Shown piece after piece: positions 12,717-39,030 of a DNA stretch of 64,000 nucleotides; position 1 is the first letter of the stretch, and every line of letters starts with the position of its first letter. Position numbers and translations under genes: made by a program. The notes beneath the pieces were generated by a model. It worked only from the letters and a program-made list of their open reading frames with translations, was not told the origin of the DNA and did not search any database. The stretch covers positions 1 to 64,000 of the forward strand of contig FAON01000010.1 of assembly GCA_001485605.1 (NCBI GenBank), read 5' to 3'. The stretch is from Candidatus Kryptobacter tengchongensis (GTDB taxonomy: Bacteria; Bacteroidota; Ignavibacteria; Kryptoniales; Kryptoniaceae).

Positions 12717-14120
12717 GTGAACGGAAAGTTTAAAATTTTCCTTATAAGCACAAGTAGGGCGATCCTTGAAGATGTGAAAAAATTTATCCCTGTTGAAGAG
12801 GGTTATTTTGATGTTAGTTTGATATCTTCATATAACGCTTTAAGAAGATCTTCGCTTCAGAAGCCTGACCTTGTAATAATTGCAATTTCCAGCAAAAGTG
12901 ATGAAACACTTCTTGAAACAGCGGTTGAACAATTTGGATCTCAAAATACAGCCTGCGTTGATTTCGTCAAGTCATACGCTTTGACAGTCAAACTTATAAA
13001 ACTTAGCGTTTTATCATACTTTTCAATGCCCGAAGAAAGCACATCTTTTTCCGATTTTATAAAGAACAAAGCTTATGAGTGGAAGAAAAAAAGCGATATA
13101 GAAAAACTTTTAAACATAAGAAAAGAGCAGTTTGACTTTTCTAATTTCATTGGAAACTCCGACAAAATGAAGGAAGTCCTAAAGCTTGTCAAAAAAGCAA
13201 TTGAACACAGCGAATTGACCGTTTTAATAATTGGTGAAACTGGAACTGGAAAAAATCTCCTTGCCAGGATAATTCACCAAAATACTTATTCCGACATAAA
13301 ACCATTTGTTGAGATAAACTGCGCTTCAATACCGCCAACGCTCCTTGAATCGGAATTATTCGGTCACGAAAAAGGCGCTTTCACAGATGCAAAGGACAGA
13401 AAAATGGGCTTATTTGAAGTTGCAAGCGGTGGAACGATCTTCCTTGATGAAATAGGAGATCTTGATTTGAATTTACAGGGGAAAATTTTAAAAGTGCTTG
13501 AAGATAAAACATTTAGAAGGGTTGGGGGCATTGAGCTGTTAAAGTTTGAAGGGAGAATTATAGCTGCAACAAATAAAAATCTTGAAACCCTTGTTGAAGA
13601 AAACAAATTCAGACGGGATTTATACTACAGATTGATGCTCTTACCAATTTATTTACCACCATTGCGCGAAAGAGGCGACGACATATTTCTCCTTGCCGAA
13701 TATTATATAAACAAATTCAATGAACTTCACCGCAAAAACCTGCCAAAAGTCAAAGGGCTATCACTTGAAGCAAAAGCTATGCTAAAAAAATATCCGTGGC
13801 CAGGAAATATAAGGGAACTCAGACATGTAATAGAAAGAGCGGTTATTTTAACAAACAACGAATATCTAACGCCAGATGATTTCAAATTTTTATTTGAAAT
13901 GAAACCGCAGACTCCAATTCAACTTGCTAACGAAACATCTACAAACATACATATAACATTCCCCATTGAATCTGCAAGCTTAAAAAATCTTGAGAAAGAA
14001 CTTGTAAAATCTGTCCTCGTCCGCGTTTCCTGGAACAAAACTCGCGCTTCTCGAATTTTAGGGATCTCGCGCCCACGCCTTGACCGCCTAATCCAAAAAT
14101 ACCGGATAACCCCTCATTGA
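12717..14120 (+). CDS. Sigma-54-dependent activator (bEBP) with degenerate receiver domain
   Basis: 467 residues. The AAA+ core is complete: Walker A GETGTGKN (173-180), sigma-54 contact loop GAFTDA (220-225), Walker B TIFLDEIGD (240-248), arginine finger FRRDLYYRL (298-306) and WPGNIRELRH. A Fis-type helix-turn-helix ends the protein (NKTRASRILGISRPRLDRLI). Residues 1-110 look like a receiver domain (KIFLISTS; PDLVIIAIS), but Ala56 replaces the phosphoacceptor Asp and the acidic pocket is absent, so aspartyl phosphorylation is ruled out. The GTG start lies six bases after the kinase stop. Activator sites and a sigma-54 promoter follow directly downstream. Regulation by the kinase, or by protein contact, is inferred. 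Confidence 0.93.
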   Translation: MNGKFKIFLISTSRAILEDVKKFIPVEEGYFDVSLISSYNALRRSSLQKPDLVIIAISSKSDETLLETAVEQFGSQNTACVDFVKSYALTVKLIKLSVLSYFSMPEESTSFSDFIKNKAYEWKKKSDIEKLLNIRKEQFDFSNFIGNSDKMKEVLKLVKKAIEHSELTVLIIGETGTGKNLLARIIHQNTYSDIKPFVEINCASIPPTLLESELFGHEKGAFTDAKDRKMGLFEVASGGTIFLDEIGDLDLNLQGKILKVLEDKTFRRVGGIELLKFEGRIIAATNKNLETLVEENKFRRDLYYRLMLLPIYLPPLRERGDDIFLLAEYYINKFNELHRKNLPKVKGLSLEAKAMLKKYPWPGNIRELRHVIERAVILTNNEYLTPDDFKFLFEMKPQTPIQLANETSTNIHITFPIESASLKNLEKELVKSVLVRVSWNKTRASRILGISRPRLDRLIQKYRITPH

Positions 14121-14122
14121 TA

Positions 14123-14144
14123 CAATCTATTACATACTGTAACA
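14123..14144 (+). promoter_or_regulatory. Putative activator-binding site 1 (UAS)
   Basis: Contains the dyad TTACA-TAC-TGTAA centred at 14136, preceded by CAATCTA. It matches site 2 at 18 of 22 positions. Their centres are 33 bp apart, close to three helical turns. It starts three bases after the activator's stop codon and about 120 bp before the -24/-12 promoter. Confidence 0.7.
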
Positions 14145-14155
14145 TTTCGTTGCAG

Positions 14156-14177
14156 CAATCTATTACACGATGTTACA
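14156..14177 (+). promoter_or_regulatory. Putative activator-binding site 2 (UAS)
   Basis: Second copy of the site: CAATCTA followed by TTACA-CGA-TGTTA, centred at 14169, with one mismatch in the dyad. The centre is 96 bp upstream of the GG of the sigma-54 promoter, a typical distance for activation by DNA looping. Confidence 0.7.
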
Positions 14178-14263
14178 AATTTAGAAAAAGAAACCAAACA
14201 AAAAGTTAAATCCCTTCACAAAACTAACTGATATACAACGATTTTATTGCCGAGCAAAAAATC

Positions 14264-14279
14264 TGGCATAATCTTTGCA
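14264..14279 (+). promoter_or_regulatory. Sigma-54 (-24/-12) promoter
   Basis: TGGCATAATCTTTGCA has the invariant GG (14265-14266) and GC (14277-14278) separated by exactly ten bases, and it matches the TGGCAC-N5-TTGCA consensus at nearly all positions. Transcription would start near 14290, heading toward the secreted-protein genes at 14728 and 15271. The leader before the first intact gene would be about 440 bases and includes the decayed gene copy. Confidence 0.85.
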
Positions 14280-14475
14280 GAAATTTATAATGAAATCTCG
14301 TTCTTTACATAACTCTCACAAAAGTTAATAATTTGCCTTCAGGACTTTACCTTATCTTTGATGTTTTGTTAAAACCGCTGCTTGAAGTTTTAGCCAAATT
14401 TTTGCTAATGGATTAAAGTTCAGGTATTGAAATCCTTAAGCAAACTTCTACGATCAAGTTATCTGGCTTATAATC

Positions 14476-14683
14476 CAAGTTGATCATAAAGCTCTGAAAA
14501 AACTTAAAATGGATTTGGCATTAAATTGCAGTTGGTGATTTTGCTTTGGCTTATTTTGATCGTTCTTTGCAAATAATGAATGTATGAAAGTGGTGTATTA
14601 TTTACAGTTTATGTGTTGATATATGCTGTGCTTTTGAGTTTTATATTTCGTTTTCACTGATTGTGAGTGTGAACTTTACAAAT
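14476..14683 (+). pseudogene. Decayed copy of the cysteine-rich protein gene
   Basis: The end of this stretch (14659-14683) reads DCECELYK-stop and matches the last codons of the intact gene (DCGCEPYK-stop). The match continues into the following 30 or so non-coding bases. About 150 bases earlier, 14479-14526 reads QVDHKALKKLKMDLAL in one frame, resembling SKLSEAEKKVLMDFIL of the intact protein, where the same two landmarks are 159 bases apart. Stops and frame breaks lie between. The 5' end cannot be placed; a weak resemblance starts near 14290. The stretch 14121-14727 otherwise holds only the activator sites and the promoter. Confidence 0.6.
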
Positions 14684-14775
14684 AATAACTCAAAACTAAA
14701 TGTTAAGCTAAAATTAATGAATCTACAATGAAGCTTTTTATCTCAACTCTCGGCGTCATCATCTTCGTTATCAGC
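14659..14775 (+). repeat. Duplicated 3'-end/spacer/leader cassette, copy A
   Basis: Copy A spans the decayed gene's last codons, the spacer (ACTCAAAACTAAATGTTAA) and the first 48 coding bases of the cysteine-rich gene. It matches copy B at 15202-15318. The 48 bases encoding the signal-peptide start differ at only two positions. The part just before the ATG differs: copy B has AAGGAGG and copy A has lost it. Confidence 0.85.
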
Positions 14776-15228: not shown

Positions 15229-15318
15229 TAAACTCAAAACTAAATGTTAAACTAAAATAAGGAGGTTACCATGAAGCGTCTTATCTCAACTCTCGGCGTC
15301 ATCATCTTCGTTATCAGC
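15202..15318 (+). repeat. Duplicated 3'-end/spacer/leader cassette, copy B
   Basis: Second copy of the 14659-14775 cassette: the last codons of the cysteine-rich gene, the spacer, and the first 48 bases of the lipoprotein gene. The coding sequences beyond the signal peptide are unrelated. Confidence 0.85.
15259..15265 (+). promoter_or_regulatory. Strong ribosome binding site of the ZU5 lipoprotein gene
   Basis: AAGGAGG lies five bases before the ATG at 15271. The paralogous upstream region at 14711-14727 lacks it, so the second gene of the operon should be translated better than the first. Confidence 0.8.
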
Positions 15319-15828
15319 CTGTCATTCTTTTTAACAAGTTGCGCTGATAACCCGGTTGGATTTTCAACTGGGAAACCGGGAATAGTCAACAAAGGTACAC
15401 AGGTTAAGCTTTTGAAGTGGAATGACGCATTCAAGCAGGAACTACTTGCTAAGAAAGGGTTTGCGGGCAAATGGGTGTTCCCGGACAAAGATGCAACAGT
15501 TGGAGGTAAAAAAACTTATAATAACTCCGTGTTTATTCCTGCGGGCGCGGTTAGCGAACCAACTTATGTGACAGTTGAAGTTCTTGGCGGTGAATACGCT
15601 GCTGTTGAATTTAATCCAAGCATGACGTTTAATAAGAATGTCACAATTACGCTTTCGTATGCTGGGGTTGACCTTGAAGACGGCTCACCATATGATCTTA
15701 AACCAGTATGGTATAACCCAGATACCGGAAACTGGGAATATGTTAACAGCCCCGTGACAGTTAATACGGAAAAACAAACAATAAGCTTCCAGACAAACCA
15801 TTTCTCAAGATATGGATGGTCATGGTAA
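15271..15828 (+). CDS. Lipoprotein with ZU5-like beta domain
   Basis: 185 residues. The signal peptide ends in a lipobox (FFLTSC, Cys25), so the protein should be lipid-anchored. The mature part contains SVFIPAGAVSEPTYVTVEV, the core of ZU5-type domains, followed by strands ending PVWYNPDTGNWEYV and FQTNHFSRYGWSW. The first 16 codons are nearly identical in DNA to those of the cysteine-rich protein, but here the peptide leads to a lipobox rather than a signal peptidase I site. Second intact gene of the sigma-54 operon. ZU5 domains mostly act in protein contacts, so a surface adaptor role is possible but inferred. Confidence 0.82.
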   Translation: MKRLISTLGVIIFVISLSFFLTSCADNPVGFSTGKPGIVNKGTQVKLLKWNDAFKQELLAKKGFAGKWVFPDKDATVGGKKTYNNSVFIPAGAVSEPTYVTVEVLGGEYAAVEFNPSMTFNKNVTITLSYAGVDLEDGSPYDLKPVWYNPDTGNWEYVNSPVTVNTEKQTISFQTNHFSRYGWSW

Positions 15829-15873
15829 TTTTTGCTTAATTTTAACCCTTCACAACAAGGAGGTATGGACGCC

Positions 15874-17121
15874 ATGAAAAGGCTTAAATCAAGTTTTCTT
15901 GATAAAGTTATAGCCGTCGCCCGCAGGTACTGCGGGGACGACTTCATTAAAAAATTTAATCAAATAGTTAAAGAACGAGAGGAAAATTTCATTCTGGATC
16001 TAAAAGAAGCAAAGAATAAAATTGAGGTTGAGCCAGAAGTTCAAGAAGAAATAGTAAACGAGCTCAAGTTTGATACATTGTTAAGTTTATCCGCTGAATA
16101 TCTTGAGCAGTATAAATTTATTCAGATGTGTTTTGACATTGGAGATGTGTGTTTAACATATGGAGAGTTTGATAAGGCAGAGAACTGTTTCTTACTTGTG
16201 ATAAAGAAAGCTGGAAAAACCCGCGAATTTGATGAGGCAAGGGCAAAAGCATATGTCAAGCTTGGCGAGGTAAAAACAAAACAAAATGAATTAAACGATG
16301 CAGTTTCAGCTCTGAAACAAGGGCTGAAAATATATCAAAAGCTTCGCAATACTGATGGGATTGCACTATGTGAAAATGGTCTTGGTATAGCGTTTTATGA
16401 AAGCGGTCGTTATGATTTTGGGACAACATACTTCAACCATGCACTTAAAAAAGCTGAAAAAACGAAAAATGAGGAATTGATAGCAAGGTTGCATATAAAT
16501 CTCGGGATAATTGAAAGTATGCGCGGGAACTGGGATAAAGCCATTTCACATTTTCAGCAAGCATTGCCAAGGCTTGAGAAAAGAGGTGATGCTTTACGAC
16601 TTGCCCAGACATATCACAACATCGGGATAACCTTGATTCATAAAGGCGAATATGATGCTGCTGTTAAAGAATTTGATAAAAGCATTGAACTTGCGCAGAA
16701 GCTTGAGGACAGCTATATGCTTGCCCTTGCTTACCTTGGCAAGGCTGATGCTTATGTTCGGATCAAAGATCTCCCACTTGCAACTGCATATGTGACGCGC
16801 TCGCTTGATATATTCTATAAAATTGGAGATAGGCAAAGCATTGCGGATGCTTATAGAATACTTGGTGTCATCCAGCTTGAACATGGGAATCTTCAACTCG
16901 CGGAGAGTTACTTCAAGACATCAATTGATCTAAATCTTGAATTTAAAAACTGGCTCAACCTCGGTGAAACTTATTATGAATTGAGCCAGCTTTACAAAAA
17001 GCAAGAACAGATTGACAAAGCCAGGGAATCATTGAGTTCATCGCTCAAATACTTTAAGAAAATTAAAGTTAAATCATACATCGCCCGAATCCAGATTGAA
17101 TTGAGTGAGTTAAAAGCTTAA
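15874..17121 (+). CDS. TPR-repeat protein
   Basis: About 415 residues from the ATG at 15874, which is ten bases after AAGGAGG; ATG 15865 is too close to that site. No signal peptide, so it is cytosolic. After a helical N-terminal 60 residues come about eight tetratricopeptide repeats of roughly 40 residues (GDVCLTYGEFDKAENCF; LGIIESMRGNWDKAISHFQQAL; HNIGITLIHKGEYDAAVKEF; LGVIQLEHGNLQLAESYF). It resembles Rap-type or MalT-type sensor TPR domains without an output domain. It closes the sigma-54 operon before a strong terminator and could bind the activator or kinase as feedback; that is inference. Confidence 0.88.
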   Translation: MKRLKSSFLDKVIAVARRYCGDDFIKKFNQIVKEREENFILDLKEAKNKIEVEPEVQEEIVNELKFDTLLSLSAEYLEQYKFIQMCFDIGDVCLTYGEFDKAENCFLLVIKKAGKTREFDEARAKAYVKLGEVKTKQNELNDAVSALKQGLKIYQKLRNTDGIALCENGLGIAFYESGRYDFGTTYFNHALKKAEKTKNEELIARLHINLGIIESMRGNWDKAISHFQQALPRLEKRGDALRLAQTYHNIGITLIHKGEYDAAVKEFDKSIELAQKLEDSYMLALAYLGKADAYVRIKDLPLATAYVTRSLDIFYKIGDRQSIADAYRILGVIQLEHGNLQLAESYFKTSIDLNLEFKNWLNLGETYYELSQLYKKQEQIDKARESLSSSLKYFKKIKVKSYIARIQIELSELKA

Positions 17122-17133
17122 AAAACAATTAGA

Positions 17134-17166
17134 CCGGCGGTTTTAGCTCAGCCGCCGGCTTTTTTA
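17134..17166 (+). terminator. Rho-independent terminator of the sigma-54 operon
   Basis: Perfect 7-bp stem CCGGCGG / CCGCCGG with an 11-base loop, followed by GCTTTTTT. It starts 13 bases after the TPR gene's stop. Confidence 0.92.
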
Positions 17167-17192: not shown

Positions 17193-18491
17193 ATGATTGA
17201 AAACCTTGACATATTTGAAGAGGTAAGAAAGAAAATAACAGATGTCAAAAAACGAATTGAGGAACTTGAGGGGGAAAAACATAGAAACCTTGAAATTATT
17301 CTCAATGTCGTCAAAGCGATAAATTCATCGCTAATTCTTAAAGAGGTTTTAAAAATAGTTCTTGATAATTTAATTTCGCTTGCAAAAGCCGATAAGGGTT
17401 GTTTATTTTTATCCAATGGGGGTGATAATTTAAAATGTGCTCTTGCAAGAAATTCAAAGGGAGAAACAATTGATGAAGAAGAAATTGCATATAGTAAAAG
17501 CATAGTTCAGGATGTGTATTCAAGTGGTGAGCCAATAGTTATTGAAGACATTGTCAATTATGGCGATTTCATGAAAAAGGAAAGCATCATTGCACTTAAT
17601 CTTAAAACAATAATCAGCGTCCCATTAAAGGTTGATGACCAGGTAATAGGCGTCGTTTATGTTGACAGCAATCGTGTTACAGGGATTCACAAGAATGAGA
17701 TACTTCAACTTTTTGAAATACTTGCGGGTCATGCTGCCATTGCAATACGAAATGCAAAACTCTATGAAAAACTTTCAAAGGCATATGCCGATCTTCAATC
17801 GGCGAACGAGGCTATGATAAAAGCCGAAAGGATGGCAACGCGTGGAGCACTTGCCTCCGAAATCGGGCACGAACTTTCAAACTATCTGACCATCATTTCA
17901 ATCAATGCCAAGCTTATCTCAAGAGAAATAGCAAGAATTTCTCAAGATGAAAAACTTAACAACTCGGTTTCCTCCCTACTTTTTGGAATTAACAAAATGA
18001 AATACTTCATTCGTGGCTTACTTGACAGTGCAGAAATGAAACCAAACAAGCAACCGTCTAACATAAATAATATCGTCAAAGAGACAATACAATTTGTTCA
18101 ACCGCTGTCAAGATATTCAACGGTGAAATTTATTGAAGAACTTGATCCCGAGATTCCGATAATTAACATTGATCCATTCCAGTTTCAGCAACTTTTGATT
18201 AATCTTTACAAAAATGCCACCGATGCAAGAAAAGATGCAACTATAATAACCAGAACATATTTTGACAGGGAATTTAACAGAATTGAGGTAAGGGTCGCTG
18301 ATAACGGTCCTGGAATCCCCCCAGAGGTTCGTGAGAAACTTTTTAATATAAATTTAACCACAAAACCAGATGGACATGGTTATGGTCTGATGATATGCAA
18401 AAAAATAGTTGAAAATCACAATGGGAAAATTGAAGTTATAAGCGAACTGGGCAATGGAACCGAATTTATAATTTCAATTCCAGCCGAATAG
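17193..18491 (+). CDS. GAF-domain sensor histidine kinase
   Basis: 432 residues, no transmembrane segment. A short coiled coil (KKITDVKKRIEELEGEKHRN) precedes a GAF domain at about 40-185. A helical dimerisation region follows with H-box ASEIGHELSNYL (His226), and an HATPase domain with N-box INLYKNATDA (about 340), DNGPGIP (about 370) and GHGYGL. It should sense a cytosolic ligand and autophosphorylate. No response regulator with a phosphoacceptor Asp is nearby; the activator at 12717 has lost its own. It lies between two terminators, so it is probably its own transcription unit. Confidence 0.92.
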   Translation: MIENLDIFEEVRKKITDVKKRIEELEGEKHRNLEIILNVVKAINSSLILKEVLKIVLDNLISLAKADKGCLFLSNGGDNLKCALARNSKGETIDEEEIAYSKSIVQDVYSSGEPIVIEDIVNYGDFMKKESIIALNLKTIISVPLKVDDQVIGVVYVDSNRVTGIHKNEILQLFEILAGHAAIAIRNAKLYEKLSKAYADLQSANEAMIKAERMATRGALASEIGHELSNYLTIISINAKLISREIARISQDEKLNNSVSSLLFGINKMKYFIRGLLDSAEMKPNKQPSNINNIVKETIQFVQPLSRYSTVKFIEELDPEIPIINIDPFQFQQLLINLYKNATDARKDATIITRTYFDREFNRIEVRVADNGPGIPPEVREKLFNINLTTKPDGHGYGLMICKKIVENHNGKIEVISELGNGTEFIISIPAE

Positions 18492-21273: not shown

Positions 21274-21455
21274 CGTTTTTCCTCTTTTACTTTTTGATAA
21301 AATTAGCAAATGTGGGTTAATTAAGCAATCTAAAAACATTCGCTCAATTTGAAATTAAATCTTAAAAATCTTATTTTTAAATAGTCAAAAACAAAACTAA
21401 AGTTGAGCATAGCCGATTGCTACGCTGTTAAACACAATCGCAGGTGAGTTATCAG

Positions 21456-24400
21456 ATGATTTCAAGAGTTTATGTTATTTTACTTACTGTATTTTTTCCT
21501 TATTTTTCCTACGCTGGCATTTCAAACCTTGCCTTTAATTTCTTCGCGAGGACAGATACAATTCCGTCAGATACAATTATTACGAAAACTGATTCCACAG
21601 AGATTGATTCAACAGCACGCGTAAAAATTTTCAATAAAAAATTTACACTCAAACCTTACATTCAATTAAATCGCCCTAAACCACACCCATTGCTTTTCAC
21701 CCCTCCAAATCTGGTAACGCGTGACATAAAAATTGATTCAACAGGTAAATTCGTTAAAATAACAGAAAAGATAGCGGGCTTTGAACATACTTTCCCGCTT
21801 ATTATACCTATTGAAAAATACATTCAACTCCGACTTGAAGAAAACAGAAGAAAATCGTGGATTGAACTTGCTCAAAGATACGAAAGGAAAGAAGAAAAGG
21901 ATGATATTGAAAAGCTTTTTGGAAGCATAACAAACATTCAGATACCTGTTCCGGCAAATCCGATTTTGAGCATATTTGGTCCACCTGTTATAAATCTTCA
22001 CATTTCCGGCGCTGTTGATATAACGGGGGCATGGCGAAATGAAAAAACCGAACAGCTTATAGTATCGCGACTTGGAAGCGTTAGAAACGAACCTGACTTC
22101 AATCAGCAGGTTCAAATAAATGTCGGTGGAACCATTGGTGATAAACTTAACATAACAGCTGATTGGAACACACAGAGACAATTTGAGTTTGAAAACCAGC
22201 TTAAAATAAAATACAAAGGTTATGATGACGAGGTAATTCAAAGCATTGAGGCAGGTAATGTTTCCCTTCAAACCCCGTCCTCTTTAATTGGAAGCAGTCA
22301 GGCGCTGTTTGGCATAAAGGCAAACTTACAACTTGGTCCATTAAAACTCACAACAATAGCAAGTCAGAAAAAAGGCGAGGCACAAGAAAGGGTTTTAACA
22401 GGTGGTGCTCAAACTCAGGAAACCAGGGTGTTTCTCTACCAATACTCTCAGAGACATTATTTCATTGATGAAAAATACATACAAACTTATGAACCCTATT
22501 ACCAGAACAGCCCCCCACTGAGAGTTGCCCCGGAACTTCAAGTTAAAGATATTGAGGTATGGATTTCACAACTTGAACGCCCCGAGCCAGGCTTGACAAG
22601 ATTCATTGTGGCGGATATAAACTTACCACCGATAACAAATAAAGCTTATTATGACAGTTTAAGAACACAGGTCCTTCAAAGCGATCCCGGGAGAATTGAA
22701 GTTGGGCTTTTTAGAAAACTTGAACCAGGCAAAGATTATACCATCAACCCAGATATTGGCGTCATCTCACTTAATATAGAGATCCAAGACAATCAAGCAC
22801 TTGCAGTTGCCTATAGAGTTGAAGGACCGACTCAAATTGCTGCTGACGATACGGTTTATGGAGATTTTATTAATTCTTTAACTGATACATCTGCAACGCT
22901 TGTTTTAAAACTTGTAAGACCCAGATCACCACAGCCATCTTTTAAAAAGGCATGGATATTACAGTTAAGAAACATCTACCCACTTGGTGGGGCAAGGAAT
23001 ATAAAAAAGGAAGGATTTGAACTAAAACTTCTCTACAAACCAAGCCCAGACCAAGAAGAAAGAGAAGATATTGATGGGATAAATCTTCTAAAAGCATTTG
23101 GATTTGATAAATTTACAGAAGATGGTTCCCCGGGCTCAGATAATAAATTTGATTTCTCTGACCAAACGATAAACCCAAGCCGAGGCGAAATTATTTTTCC
23201 GTTCCTAAAACCATTCAGCAAAGAAACATTGAAAAAAATCTTCGCAGATAAAAATGATGAATTCATAAACTCCATTTCCTATGATGATATTTACGATACG
23301 AATCAAGTTGCTGCGAGAAATAACACCGCAAAAGCTTCAAAATTTGTGATCTCAGCTAAATTAACAAGTGATGTGCAAGCAACATATAATCTTGGATTCA
23401 ATGTCGCAGAAGGAAGTGTGCAAGTTTATTTAAATGATAGACGCTTGGTTGAGGGCGTTGATTACAGGGTTGACTATATACTTGGTCAGTTGACAGTCAT
23501 AAATCGTGATGCTTTGCTTCCAGGAGCTAATCTGAAAATAAGATATGAAACAAATGATCTCTTCTCCTTTGCATCAAAGACTATACTTGGAGCTCGTGGA
23601 GATCTTGATATAAGCGAAAACACAAAACTTGGCTTCACACTTATGAATTACGCCCAGCAAAGTTTAAGTGATAAAGTAAGATTAGGTGAAGAGCCGATAA
23701 GCAACACCATGCTTGGGGTTGATTTTTCAACAAAACTTAATTCAAGAAGAATATCGGAAGCTTTCAACATATTCCCGGGCTATCAAGCAAAACAGGATGC
23801 TTCATTTTCACTGCGCGGGGAATCAGCGTTCATAATTGCCGATCCTAATACAAGAAAAAGCACAATCTCAGGTGACAACCGCGAAAGCGTTGTTTACCTT
23901 GACGACTTTGAAGGCTCAAAACGAATTATCTCTTTCAGTTTAATTTCAAGCCACTGGCATTTCTCAAGCCCTCCCGCCTTTATGCCCTTGCTTGGCGAAA
24001 CAAGAAAAGAAGAAATATCTGATACAATAAAAGTTCAAAGAAAAGGATACCTTGCCTGGTTTAACATCCCCCAATCGGTTCAAATTACCGAAGTATGGCC
24101 CCAAAAAAGAGTAGCTCAAGAAGAACAATTTATAACACCGCTTGATATTCAGTTTTTCCCAAAAAGTCATGGTCAGTATAACTACACCAGCAAATGGGAT
24201 TCAATCAAAAATTTTCCCCGCCAAAATTGGGCAGGAATGATGAGAGTTCTTCCCTATTTTTCAACAGATCTTACAACAGAAAATATAACTTACATTGAAA
24301 TCTGGTTCAAAATCATTGGAAACCCTGGACCAAATGCAAAAATGTTAATAAACCTTGGACAAATTTCAGAAGATGTGATACCAAATAGAAAACTTGATAC

Positions 24401-27400
24401 CGAAGATAAAAATGGGAATTACCGCCTTGACCCAGATGAAGATGTTGGGCTTGATGGAATGAGCGATGAAGAAGAAAAGGCAAAATACCCATGGCTTGGT
24501 GATGACCCAAGCCAAGATAACTTTAATTACTCCGATCCCTTAAAAAGAAACGGAACCGAAGGAAATAGAAATTTTTATCCCGAACCAGACCAAGAAGACC
24601 TTAACAGAAATCATATACTTGATCTTGTAAATAATTACTTTGAATATGAAGTTCCACTTGATACCGTGAATAACCCATACATTGCTGGTGGTGGTTCAAA
24701 TGGCTGGTATCAACTTAAAATACCTCTTTCATCATACACGCGAACGATAGGAAATCCAAGCTTTACACTTATTGAATTTGTAAGGGTTTGGTTTACTGGC
24801 TTTGAAAATGAGGCTATCATTAGAATAGCCGAATTTAACCTTGTTGGAAACTACTGGGAAGAACTTGTAAAGAATGACGAGATCTTTAAAGTTACAGTTG
24901 TAAGCATTGAAGATAATCCAGATTATACCCCACCTCCTGGCGTCCAGAGACCAAGAGATAGAACTAGACCAGATCAACAAATTGAGGGGAATGAACAATC
25001 ACTTGCTTTCATAATTAGAAATCTCCCTGATGATACACTTCGCCTTGCGATGAGAAGATTTCCACAACGCCTTGACCTTTTTAACTACAAAATTATGCGA
25101 CTTTTTGTCCACGGAGATAGAAGTTTCTATTTCCGAGACACGACAGATTATTCGGCCGAAATTTTCGTTTGGGTTGGAACAGACACATCAAATTATTACG
25201 AATATCGCCAACCTATATGGCCAGATTGGGATGCGAGAAACAACATTCAAATCATTTTTGAACAACTTACAGCTCTGAAACAAACAAGGGATTCAATAAA
25301 TCAACCCATCAAAAGAATATCCGTGCCAGATGGTCCACCTGGGGCAACATACTGGATCAAGGGAAATCCATCCTTAACGAATGTAACATTTATTGCAATT
25401 GGAGTTACAAATCCAAAGGGTAAAGGTCCAGGATTACTTTCCGGTGATGTTTGGGTAAATGAATTACGACTTTTAAAGGCGAATGATGCTCTCGGTTGGG
25501 CGTATAATTTATCTGCGCAGTTTAATGTGCCTGAACTTTTAAGTGTTAACTTTGGAATTGCACGAAGAAGCCCCGAATTCAGAGGACTTACAGATAGATT
25601 TGTGAATTCATCAACTCGTGTTTTATCAACGAATTGGTCACTCTCAACGAATTTAAATCTTGAAAAAATTCTGCCCACATTTTTAAGCTCATCTTTAAAA
25701 ATTCCATTTACATACTCAAGGGCTGAAAACATTGGGATTCCCAAATATATCCCCGGAAAGGACATACTTGCAAAAGAAGCAGCAAATCGCCTAAGACAAA
25801 CCACAATTGAAAACGGAGGAACCGAGGAAGAAGCAAATAGAAAAGCTGATAGTTTATTAACAGTTATTCAACAAGTGATGATATCAGAAACATGGGCTAT
25901 TCCATCTTTCAACTTTACTATTAATTCGCAAAAATGGTATGTCAGAGATGTAATCAATAAAATAAACCTCGGTTTTAACTTCAATCGCTCAAAATTCAGA
26001 GATATAAACACCGAAACAAGCAGTAAGTGGGGCTTTAACTTTCAGACAAGTTATTCAACAAGTATAAAACCGATAACTCTGAAACCTTTCAAGTCACTCT
26101 TCGCTGGAGTCCCATTACTTGATACATATAAAGATTGGGAAATTCAATTTACCCCGTCTTCATTTTCTGGAATGATGAGATTTGACAGGGCTCATGAAAA
26201 TAGAAAGTTCAGAACAAAGGCAACTTACGAACCAACAACCAGAGTTTTTAACGCACAAAGAGGTTTCTCATTTGATTGGAGGCTTTCAAACAATGGGTTA
26301 ATCAATCCATCCTTGAGATATCAAGTTGACATCGGAAGCAATCTCGTTCATCTTGAGACAGATTCGCTTGGGCAACAGAGAAGCACGAAAGAAATTCTTG
26401 ATGACATCTTCTTCAAAGACGGATTAATCAATTTCGGGAAAACATCAACCCTATCACAGCAAATAAGTATAGGGACAAATCCAAGGATACCTCCAATTTT
26501 GGGCTTGAATAAATACCTTAACGCAAATTTCAGCTACTCTTCAGCTTATAGATGGCAAAATAATTTTCAACAAAAAGAGCTTGGTAGAAGCGCGGGATAT
26601 TCAGCAAACTTAAACTTTGGCTTCTCGTTAAGATTGAAATCACTTGCTGATTCATGGTTTGGAGAAAAAGCAGAAGGCGGAGTTAAAGCACAAACTCAAA
26701 AAGATACATCTAAAAAGTCCGGGCTCTCGCTAAAAGATATTTTGAGTATACTCATAAAAAAACCTTTACTTGATTATGAAAATGTTCAGGTTACCTTTAC
26801 CCAAACGAACACAGCAATTAACACAGGTCTTTATGGCGGAAGACCCGGAATGGGAAATCTTTGGGCTTGGCTTCCTTTTATTGATGATAAAATTGAATAC
26901 GGTCCATCATTTTTATATCAGTTAGGTCTTGTATCCGATCCAAACGGCAAAATTCGGCTTTCGCCCAAGGGAGGCTTTCCATTTTTCGGGTTTGAGCAAA
27001 GTCCGGGATTAAGAGCTCCAAATGGAAACCTTGACGATAACTATTCCCAGAATAATAGAATTTCAATAACAACTTCCCGCTCCCTTTGGCAAGGCGCTTA
27101 CCTTGACTTAAGCTGGAATCTTGGATGGAGCTATCAAAGAAATCAAAGAATTGTTACAGATTCACTTGGGATTCCAAAAGTTACCTCCTTTACGAGCTCC
27201 GCTTCAGTTAGTCGTTCTTTCCTAACCTTACCACCTGTTTTCGTGTTCAGCGTTTTCAAAAGCGGAATTAAATCCGTAGCCTCAAAATACGCTGAACTTA
27301 AACTTGATCCCACAGATAAACGAACTGATGACGAGAAACTTGCACAAGCATTTGAGGAGGGTTTTGAGACATTGCCATTTTTAAGCAAACTCCTTGGCGG

Positions 27401-28052
27401 ATTTTTCCCACGCCTTAATTGGAGATTGAGATGGGACGGGCTTGAGAAGTTTTCAATTTTTAAATCATTCGCAACTCGTGTAACACTTGAACATGCATAT
27501 TCCTCAAACTTTGAAAAAAGATGGAGAAGCTTCATCGGGCAAGGACAAACTTTTGAAGGTGAAAGAACAGGCTATGATTTCAACCCTCTAATCGGGCTTA
27601 ATCTTACTTTCAAACCACTATGGAATGGAAATCTTACAGGAGGTTTCAGATATATAACTTCAACTTATTATGATCTTAACTTTTCTGCAAAAGCAATTGT
27701 TGAAACATTTAGAAGAGAAATTTCATTTAACATAAGCTATTCAAAACGCGGATTTAACTTGCCGATCTTCGGGCTCTCTCTTAAAAATGATGTTGATATA
27801 ACATTTACCTATTCATCATCAAAAAACTCAAGACAAACATACCAGGCGAGAAACCTCTCTGAAGCATTGCCACTTGATGGAATTTTGAGGACAACCATGG
27901 AGTTGAGATTTCGTTATATGTTAAGTACTCGTGTAACAGGCTCGCTATTTTACCGCTTGACAAAATCAAAATCTGACTCAAGAAGCACTTTCATCCCAGG
28001 CTCAACCATAAACGAAGTTGGAATTGATTTGCATATCTCAATCGGAACATAA
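21456..28052 (+). CDS. sprA: SprA-family outer-membrane translocon protein of the type IX secretion system
   Basis: About 2198 residues. The ATG at 21456 follows AGGTGAG by seven bases and gives a clean signal peptide (VYVILLTVFFPYFSYA); a GTG at 21444 would add four residues. Typical SprA features: the early block IFGPPVINLHISGAVDITGAW, repeated beta-strand-rich segments, an Asp-rich calcium-like stretch around residues 980-1060 (DKNGNYRLDPDEDVGLDGM; DLNRNHILDLVN) and a long C-terminal beta-barrel region. SprA forms the giant outer-membrane channel through which T9SS cargo leaves. Other T9SS parts (PorV, GldKLMN) are not in the window. One cargo is encoded at 5471-7963. Confidence 0.92.
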   Translation: MISRVYVILLTVFFPYFSYAGISNLAFNFFARTDTIPSDTIITKTDSTEIDSTARVKIFNKKFTLKPYIQLNRPKPHPLLFTPPNLVTRDIKIDSTGKFVKITEKIAGFEHTFPLIIPIEKYIQLRLEENRRKSWIELAQRYERKEEKDDIEKLFGSITNIQIPVPANPILSIFGPPVINLHISGAVDITGAWRNEKTEQLIVSRLGSVRNEPDFNQQVQINVGGTIGDKLNITADWNTQRQFEFENQLKIKYKGYDDEVIQSIEAGNVSLQTPSSLIGSSQALFGIKANLQLGPLKLTTIASQKKGEAQERVLTGGAQTQETRVFLYQYSQRHYFIDEKYIQTYEPYYQNSPPLRVAPELQVKDIEVWISQLERPEPGLTRFIVADINLPPITNKAYYDSLRTQVLQSDPGRIEVGLFRKLEPGKDYTINPDIGVISLNIEIQDNQALAVAYRVEGPTQIAADDTVYGDFINSLTDTSATLVLKLVRPRSPQPSFKKAWILQLRNIYPLGGARNIKKEGFELKLLYKPSPDQEEREDIDGINLLKAFGFDKFTEDGSPGSDNKFDFSDQTINPSRGEIIFPFLKPFSKETLKKIFADKNDEFINSISYDDIYDTNQVAARNNTAKASKFVISAKLTSDVQATYNLGFNVAEGSVQVYLNDRRLVEGVDYRVDYILGQLTVINRDALLPGANLKIRYETNDLFSFASKTILGARGDLDISENTKLGFTLMNYAQQSLSDKVRLGEEPISNTMLGVDFSTKLNSRRISEAFNIFPGYQAKQDASFSLRGESAFIIADPNTRKSTISGDNRESVVYLDDFEGSKRIISFSLISSHWHFSSPPAFMPLLGETRKEEISDTIKVQRKGYLAWFNIPQSVQITEVWPQKRVAQEEQFITPLDIQFFPKSHGQYNYTSKWDSIKNFPRQNWAGMMRVLPYFSTDLTTENITYIEIWFKIIGNPGPNAKMLINLGQISEDVIPNRKLDTEDKNGNYRLDPDEDVGLDGMSDEEEKAKYPWLGDDPSQDNFNYSDPLKRNGTEGNRNFYPEPDQEDLNRNHILDLVNNYFEYEVPLDTVNNPYIAGGGSNGWYQLKIPLSSYTRTIGNPSFTLIEFVRVWFTGFENEAIIRIAEFNLVGNYWEELVKNDEIFKVTVVSIEDNPDYTPPPGVQRPRDRTRPDQQIEGNEQSLAFIIRNLPDDTLRLAMRRFPQRLDLFNYKIMRLFVHGDRSFYFRDTTDYSAEIFVWVGTDTSNYYEYRQPIWPDWDARNNIQIIFEQLTALKQTRDSINQPIKRISVPDGPPGATYWIKGNPSLTNVTFIAIGVTNPKGKGPGLLSGDVWVNELRLLKANDALGWAYNLSAQFNVPELLSVNFGIARRSPEFRGLTDRFVNSSTRVLSTNWSLSTNLNLEKILPTFLSSSLKIPFTYSRAENIGIPKYIPGKDILAKEAANRLRQTTIENGGTEEEANRKADSLLTVIQQVMISETWAIPSFNFTINSQKWYVRDVINKINLGFNFNRSKFRDINTETSSKWGFNFQTSYSTSIKPITLKPFKSLFAGVPLLDTYKDWEIQFTPSSFSGMMRFDRAHENRKFRTKATYEPTTRVFNAQRGFSFDWRLSNNGLINPSLRYQVDIGSNLVHLETDSLGQQRSTKEILDDIFFKDGLINFGKTSTLSQQISIGTNPRIPPILGLNKYLNANFSYSSAYRWQNNFQQKELGRSAGYSANLNFGFSLRLKSLADSWFGEKAEGGVKAQTQKDTSKKSGLSLKDILSILIKKPLLDYENVQVTFTQTNTAINTGLYGGRPGMGNLWAWLPFIDDKIEYGPSFLYQLGLVSDPNGKIRLSPKGGFPFFGFEQSPGLRAPNGNLDDNYSQNNRISITTSRSLWQGAYLDLSWNLGWSYQRNQRIVTDSLGIPKVTSFTSSASVSRSFLTLPPVFVFSVFKSGIKSVASKYAELKLDPTDKRTDDEKLAQAFEEGFETLPFLSKLLGGFFPRLNWRLRWDGLEKFSIFKSFATRVTLEHAYSSNFEKRWRSFIGQGQTFEGERTGYDFNPLIGLNLTFKPLWNGNLTGGFRYITSTYYDLNFSAKAIVETFRREISFNISYSKRGFNLPIFGLSLKNDVDITFTYSSSKNSRQTYQARNLSEALPLDGILRTTMELRFRYMLSTRVTGSLFYRLTKSKSDSRSTFIPGSTINEVGIDLHISIGT

Positions 28053-38940: not shown

Positions 38941-39030
38941 GGAGGGGTGCCGGAGTGGATGATCGGGGCGGTCTCGAAAACCGCTATCCCGCTAAAAGCG
39001 GGATCGTGGGTTCGAATCCCACCCCCTCCG
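38941..39030 (+). tRNA. tRNA-Ser (anticodon CGA)
   Basis: 90-base cloverleaf: acceptor GGAGGGG / CCCCTCC with discriminator G, anticodon stem GCGGT / ACCGC with loop CTCGAAA (anticodon CGA, reading UCG), a long variable arm with stem TCCCGC / GCGGGA typical of serine tRNAs, and T-arm GTGGG-TTCGAAT-CCCAC. The 3' CCA is not encoded. Confidence 0.97.

Follow-up and report, generated by a model that had tools for sequence, protein, structure and literature searches.

A predicted single-target sigma-54 switch in Candidatus Kryptonium: a conserved upstream palindrome, an activator with a degenerate receiver, and a boxA-like leader

Which DNA site would a sigma-54 activator use when its gene lies directly ahead of a -24/-12 promoter, and how many promoters would it serve? 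This question is raised by a locus of the heat-loving bacterium Candidatus Kryptonium (genome of 2.68 Mb), contained in the 64,000-nucleotide stretch of DNA analyzed here (the window). The gene of a bacterial enhancer-binding protein (bEBP) stops just before two similar 22-mers, CAATCTATTACATACTGTAACA (14123-14144) and CAATCTATTACACGATGTTACA (14156-14177), and a sigma-54 promoter follows. A preliminary description took these 22-mers for activator sites, and its measurements are accurate: the 22-mers are identical at 18 of 22 positions, they carry the dyads TTACA-tac-TGTAA (centred at 14136) and TTACA-cga-TGTTA (one mismatch; centred at 14169), the two centres are 33 bp apart, and the second centre lies 96 bp from the GG of the promoter (14265). 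We compared the locus among seven Ca. Kryptonium genomes (G000-G006) and searched 391 genomes of the class, using each pattern read backwards as the control.

An alignment of the DNA 3' of the activator gene from the seven congeners showed short conserved islands amid diverged DNA. The islands are the -24/-12 promoter, the sequence TGYAAC-N5-GTTRCA, and TTCTTTA just past the promoter. The second of these, a 17-bp palindrome, is invariant in seven of seven congeners, although such counts do not amount to seven independent events because the congeners are related. When the class was searched for the palindrome 92-122 bp ahead of TGGCA-N6-TTG, we obtained 22 hits, as against 0 in the reversed control. 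Seven hits are the congeners. The 15 others comprise nine (L216 and L229-L236) from five other families, each within a gene cassette of the kind found here, three (L217-L219) that adjoin a different, PAS-domain bEBP, and three (L215, L220, and L221) that fall inside genes. The centre of the main dyad is 107-127 bp from the GG in all 16 cassettes; family f12 has weaker candidate dyads, at a greater distance from the promoter. The palindrome thus has the placement (80-200 bp upstream) and the conservation with its activator that characterize the upstream activator site (UAS) of a bEBP, and binding to it is predicted.

The alternative is that the binding units are the two 22-bp sites, each built on TTACA-N3-TGTAA and set three helix turns apart. 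Both 22-mers are present, their core in the stricter form TATTACA-N3-TGTNACA is found in only these two places in the genome, and in the L079 region, where a distant cassette has a second sigma-54 promoter, one similar dyad precedes that promoter. Against this, three congeners have an N2 spacer in place of N3 at the first site, and the second site lacks conservation. The loose form of the dyad (one mismatch allowed) is not rare, with 6 occurrences in the window and 3.2 expected. With the dyad relaxed to TGYAA, the class-wide search gave eight hits and one control hit and recovered four of the seven congeners, missing three, whereas the 17-bp palindrome gave 22 hits and none in its control. The first dyad of the preliminary description is thus the junction of two palindromes, made up of the right half of an upstream weaker dyad and the left half of the main dyad (Table 1). 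We consider it very improbable that the 22-mers are the binding units. The link that was drawn between this upstream region, the promoter, and the adjoining activator gene stands, but the definition of the site and its phasing do not.

The phasing was reconsidered with a dyad weight matrix built from the 16 cassette palindromes, whose scores are descriptive because the source sites had been selected by pattern. Additional weaker dyads lie mostly 19-23 bp from the main dyad, in place of the proposed 33 bp. A dyad at -19 or -20 ranks first or second among the secondary sites of all seven congeners, and several distant cassettes have a weaker dyad at -19 to -23. In one distant cassette (L236), perfect dyads occur at -23, at the main position, and at +23, making three at intervals of 23 bp. 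This spacing points to multiple phased sites about two helix turns apart, not three. The dyad at +13 is probably an alternative register, because it shares 4 bp with the main dyad.

Table 1. Positions of genes and predicted regulatory elements at the locus (window coordinates)
Feature	Coordinates	Strand	Remarks
Ser/Thr protein kinase - AAA-like ATPase - TPR protein, 1159 aa	9231..12710	+	Pfam Pkinase, E 1.4e-50
bEBP, 467 aa: receiver-like N-terminus, AAA+, Fis-type HTH	12717..14120	+	Sigma54_activat, E 1.2e-64; HTH_8
Upstream weaker dyad, TGATACAATCTATTACA	14118..14134	+	20 bp from main dyad
Main UAS palindrome (putative), TGTAACATTTCGTTGCA, consensus TGYAAC-N5-GTTRCA, 17 bp	14138..14154	+	Invariant in 7/7 congeners
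Overlapping dyad (+13), TGCAGCAATCTATTACA	14151..14167	+	Found in G000, G002, G004, G005, G006
Weak dyad (+23), TATTACACGATGTTACA	14161..14177	+	Low score in G000, poorly conserved
Sigma-54 -24/-12 promoter, TGGCATAATCTTTGCA	14264..14279	+	Aligned, conserved in 7/7 congeners
Untranslated leader, long, mostly unalignable	14280..14727	+	From promoter-to-ATG distances
First boxA-like element, GTTCTTTACAT	14300..14310	+	About +10 to +20 of predicted transcript
Second boxA-like element, GTTCTTTGCAA	14562..14572	+	Second GYTCTTTDNA in 6/7 leaders
Cys-rich secreted protein, 166 aa	14728..15228	+	Intact only here; remnants in G003 and G001 leaders
Lipoprotein, 185 aa, CADNPVG... to NHFSRYGWSW; target gene	15271..15828	+	Present in 7/7 congeners
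TPR protein	15874..17121	+	TPR domains; syntenic in congeners
Hairpin terminator, CCGGCGG..CCGCCGG-CTTTTTT	17134..17158	+	Between TPR and kinase genes
GAF-domain histidine kinase, last cassette gene	17193..18491	+	GAF, HATPase_c; syntenic in congeners

The promoter had been called perfect. Its GG and GC elements are present with the gap of ten bases between them, but its sixth base is T where the consensus has C; TGGCAC, with the consensus base, occurs in four of the seven congeners. The C of the -12 element varies in four congeners, and the promoter is otherwise conserved in all seven. TGGCAY-N5-TTGCW, the pattern to which the promoter conforms, has 10 sites in the genome as against 0 in the reversed control, and five of the 10 precede genes: those for DnaK, a flgB-like flagellar protein, and an oxidoreductase, a locus beside another bEBP, and the present one. 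A single copy of rpoN (PF04552) is found in each of the seven genus genomes. Transcription would be expected to start near 14290.

The activator has the parts of a bEBP, namely an AAA+ sigma-54 interaction domain with Walker A (GETGTGKN) and Walker B motifs, a GAFTGA-type loop, and an HTH with the recognition segment ISRPRLDRL. The loop reads GAFTDA, which also occurs in two ordinary bEBPs encoded by this genome and is unremarkable here. Orthologues in six congeners are 73-83% identical, and the nearest named relatives by this protein are Candidatus Kryptonium thompsonii and a Kryptonia MAG (83% identity). The receiver-like domain does not conform to group I (NtrC-type) response regulators: across the genus, the position of the phospho-acceptor Asp is Ala or Val, and there is no acidic pair at the start of the domain. 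Among the five bEBPs examined in the genome, only the cassette protein lacks the receiver Asp; the other four have it, together with the acidic pair. Among the bEBPs of distant cassettes, the residue here varies, and because those of families f13 and f18 retain the Asp, the loss of phosphorelay is not universal.

Could some other activator or regulator in the cell recognize the palindrome? The PAS-domain bEBP elsewhere in the class stands next to a very similar palindrome (L217-L219), and the activator can therefore not be identified from the palindrome alone. However, it travels with the bEBP cassette across families and is nearly unique in the genome, the exact 17-bp sequence occurring only twice. 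The ISRPRLDRL segment is common to nearly all cassette bEBPs and is found in none of the other four bEBPs of the genome, which have different recognition helices and intact receivers. Recognition by a regulator other than the adjoining bEBP therefore seems improbable. At L217, L218, and L219, the near-identical TGCAAC-N5-GTTGCA lies before a sigma-54-like element, which is followed by a small TPR-like gene and a gene for a secreted protein. No sigma-54 element is obvious beside the second exact copy of the palindrome, which precedes an AlaX-like gene (C12:251679), and this copy was set aside. As there are only these two copies, the activator looks dedicated to the present promoter, and the scarcity of the site speaks against the idea of a broad regulon.

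The genes around the promoter form a cassette. Its order in the congeners is Ser/Thr kinase-ATPase-TPR protein, bEBP, UAS and promoter, lipoprotein, TPR protein, and GAF histidine kinase; the same parts occur in varied order in other families, in one case with a PP2C-like phosphatase. The gene for the kinase-ATPase-TPR protein, which also has weak AAA_35/AAA_16 and TPR matches in Pfam, precedes the activator gene in the congeners (in G005 it is cut by the contig end) and in other families. The Cys-rich gene shares its signal-peptide start and flanking DNA with the lipoprotein gene that follows. Homologues of the lipoprotein were found at L077, L079, L080, L052, L216, L229, L231, and L234-L236, and in the cassette lipoproteins of other families the C-terminal HFS-Y-(A/G)-(F/W), or HFSRY(A/G)(F/W), is conserved. 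This ending recalls the HFS cleavage motif of ZU5-type domains. Pfam gave no match for the lipoprotein family, and an AlphaFold model was discarded (mean pLDDT 39). The ORF of the TPR protein opens at 15832, and comparison with the congeners places its start at ATG 15874. The hairpin terminator is present in seven of seven congeners, with a predicted energy of -19 to -25 kcal/mol for an 80-nt stretch. The sequence TTTAATCA precedes the start of the histidine kinase in nearly all congeners.

The distance from the promoter to the lipoprotein ATG is 370-625 nt in the congeners and 1007 nt here, the longer distance being due to the extra, Cys-rich gene. All seven leaders have GYTCTTTANA at a distance of 35-41 nt from where TGGCA begins, and the motif is enriched in the leaders as a whole (10 occurrences versus 0.11 expected from Markov sequences). 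The elements closely match the gamma-proteobacterial boxA consensus GYTCTTTAANA (PMC5725501), of which perfect copies occur in two of the leaders (G005 and G006). They also resemble the boxA of a genus rrn operon, GTTCTTTGAAAATTG, which lies before the 23S gene of G004; this was the single rrn boxA available for comparison, because the 16S region of the host genome is masked and the 16S operon of G003 was left out as a control on account of its foreign-looking neighborhood. This operon (L097 on G003:C8), the only 16S-23S operon binned with G003, lies beside an endonuclease-III-like gene, and both its leader and its spacer are very short; it may be a contaminant. Outside the genus, the combination of sigma-54 promoter and boxA occurred at about the control level and was mostly intragenic, and so boxA in this position appears to be specific to Kryptonium.

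The first of these elements could instead belong to the initial transcribed region of the sigma-54 promoter or bind a protein, and the leader could be the remnant of a decaying gene. The remnants of the Cys-rich gene in some congener leaders are in keeping with this explanation, as is the reliance of the boxA comparison on one rrn boxA. On the other side are the consensus match, including the perfect copies, and the second copy in most leaders, which stands at a variable distance; an RNA element fits these two properties better than a part of the promoter does. We regard the non-boxA explanation as doubtful, but it keeps appreciable weight. If the elements are boxA, antitermination of the long untranslated leader would be their natural reading.

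Searches of other kinds returned little. An Rfam scan of the window and the congener loci found no match in the leader, its sole match being a tRNA at 38941; PADLOC gave only generic kinase and AAA matches, and no cassette protein reached the cut-off of any named NCBIfam family. A plasmid collection contained distant bEBPs only (at most 35% identity), and our literature search found no paper linking Kryptonia with sigma-54. Elsewhere in the window, 21444-28052 encodes a 2202-aa SprA-type protein (type IX secretion/gliding).

We propose that the locus is a dedicated, one-target sigma-54 switch composed of the adjoining bEBP, the palindrome, the promoter, a probable kinase gate, and a leader with boxA-like elements, a reading to which we assign a probability of roughly 0.8. 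Dimers of the bEBP would bind the main palindrome, assisted by the weaker dyad that lies upstream at a distance of about two helix turns. The bEBP would then form its AAA+ ring and open the sigma-54 polymerase at the promoter, with about 110-120 bp of DNA looped out in between. The resulting transcript is predicted to cover the lipoprotein and TPR genes and, in part, past the hairpin terminator, the GAF histidine kinase. Because the receiver-like domain has lost its phospho-acceptor Asp, the activator is probably not triggered by a classical His-Asp relay, and the co-encoded Ser/Thr kinase-ATPase-TPR protein is the obvious candidate; gene order and the dead receiver suggest that this kinase probably gates the activator. 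In Kryptonium, the boxA-like elements of the leader would probably recruit NusB/S10, so that polymerase is not stopped there. The sequences themselves show the conservation, the spacing, the synteny, the missing Asp, and the enrichment of boxA; that this bEBP binds and activates, that the kinase gates it, and that antitermination takes place are predictions from them.

A more far-reaching picture is that of an undescribed cassette, spread over several families of the class, in which a Ser/Thr kinase-ATPase-TPR hub, in place of a histidine kinase, triggers a dedicated dead-receiver bEBP to switch on one sigma-54 operon, with boxA antitermination in Kryptonium and a hairpin that sets the level of a feedback kinase. 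We offer this tentatively and think it unlikely to hold in full. What began as a visual guess has nonetheless become a testable site, with one palindrome, one promoter, and one activator conserved across families without genetics. The model predicts a sigma-54 activator driven by a Ser/Thr kinase instead of a phosphorelay, and boxA antitermination acting on an mRNA that is transcribed from a sigma-54 promoter and begins with a long untranslated leader.

The class of mechanism is known; the combination of parts is new, unusual, and conserved. The FHA-domain bEBPs of Myxococcus exemplify bEBPs linked to Ser/Thr kinases, and the likeness lies in a sigma-54 activator placed within Ser/Thr-kinase signaling. 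The present activator differs in having a degenerate receiver and no FHA domain, and its presumptive kinase is fused to an AAA-like ATPase and TPRs. The NtrC box is TGCACCAnnnTGGTGCA (PMC8743547). Like the NtrC sites of glnAp2, the Kryptonium palindrome is 17 bp long with a 6-5-6 layout and TG..CA ends, it lies about 110-130 bp before a -24/-12 promoter, and more than one site is in helical phase. The inner bases differ, being ACC/GGT in the NtrC box and AAC/GTT in the Kryptonium palindrome. Unlike NtrC, the activator here has no phospho-acceptor Asp in its receiver, and its gene immediately precedes the site, accompanied by one for a Ser/Thr kinase; whereas NtrC governs a global regulon, this activator apparently has a single target. 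In boxA/NusB antitermination of rRNA and of non-rRNA leaders such as suhB (PMC5725501), the same GYTCTTTA-type element occurs soon after the start of the transcript; here, the putative boxA lies behind a sigma-54 promoter, in the long leader of a lipoprotein operon.
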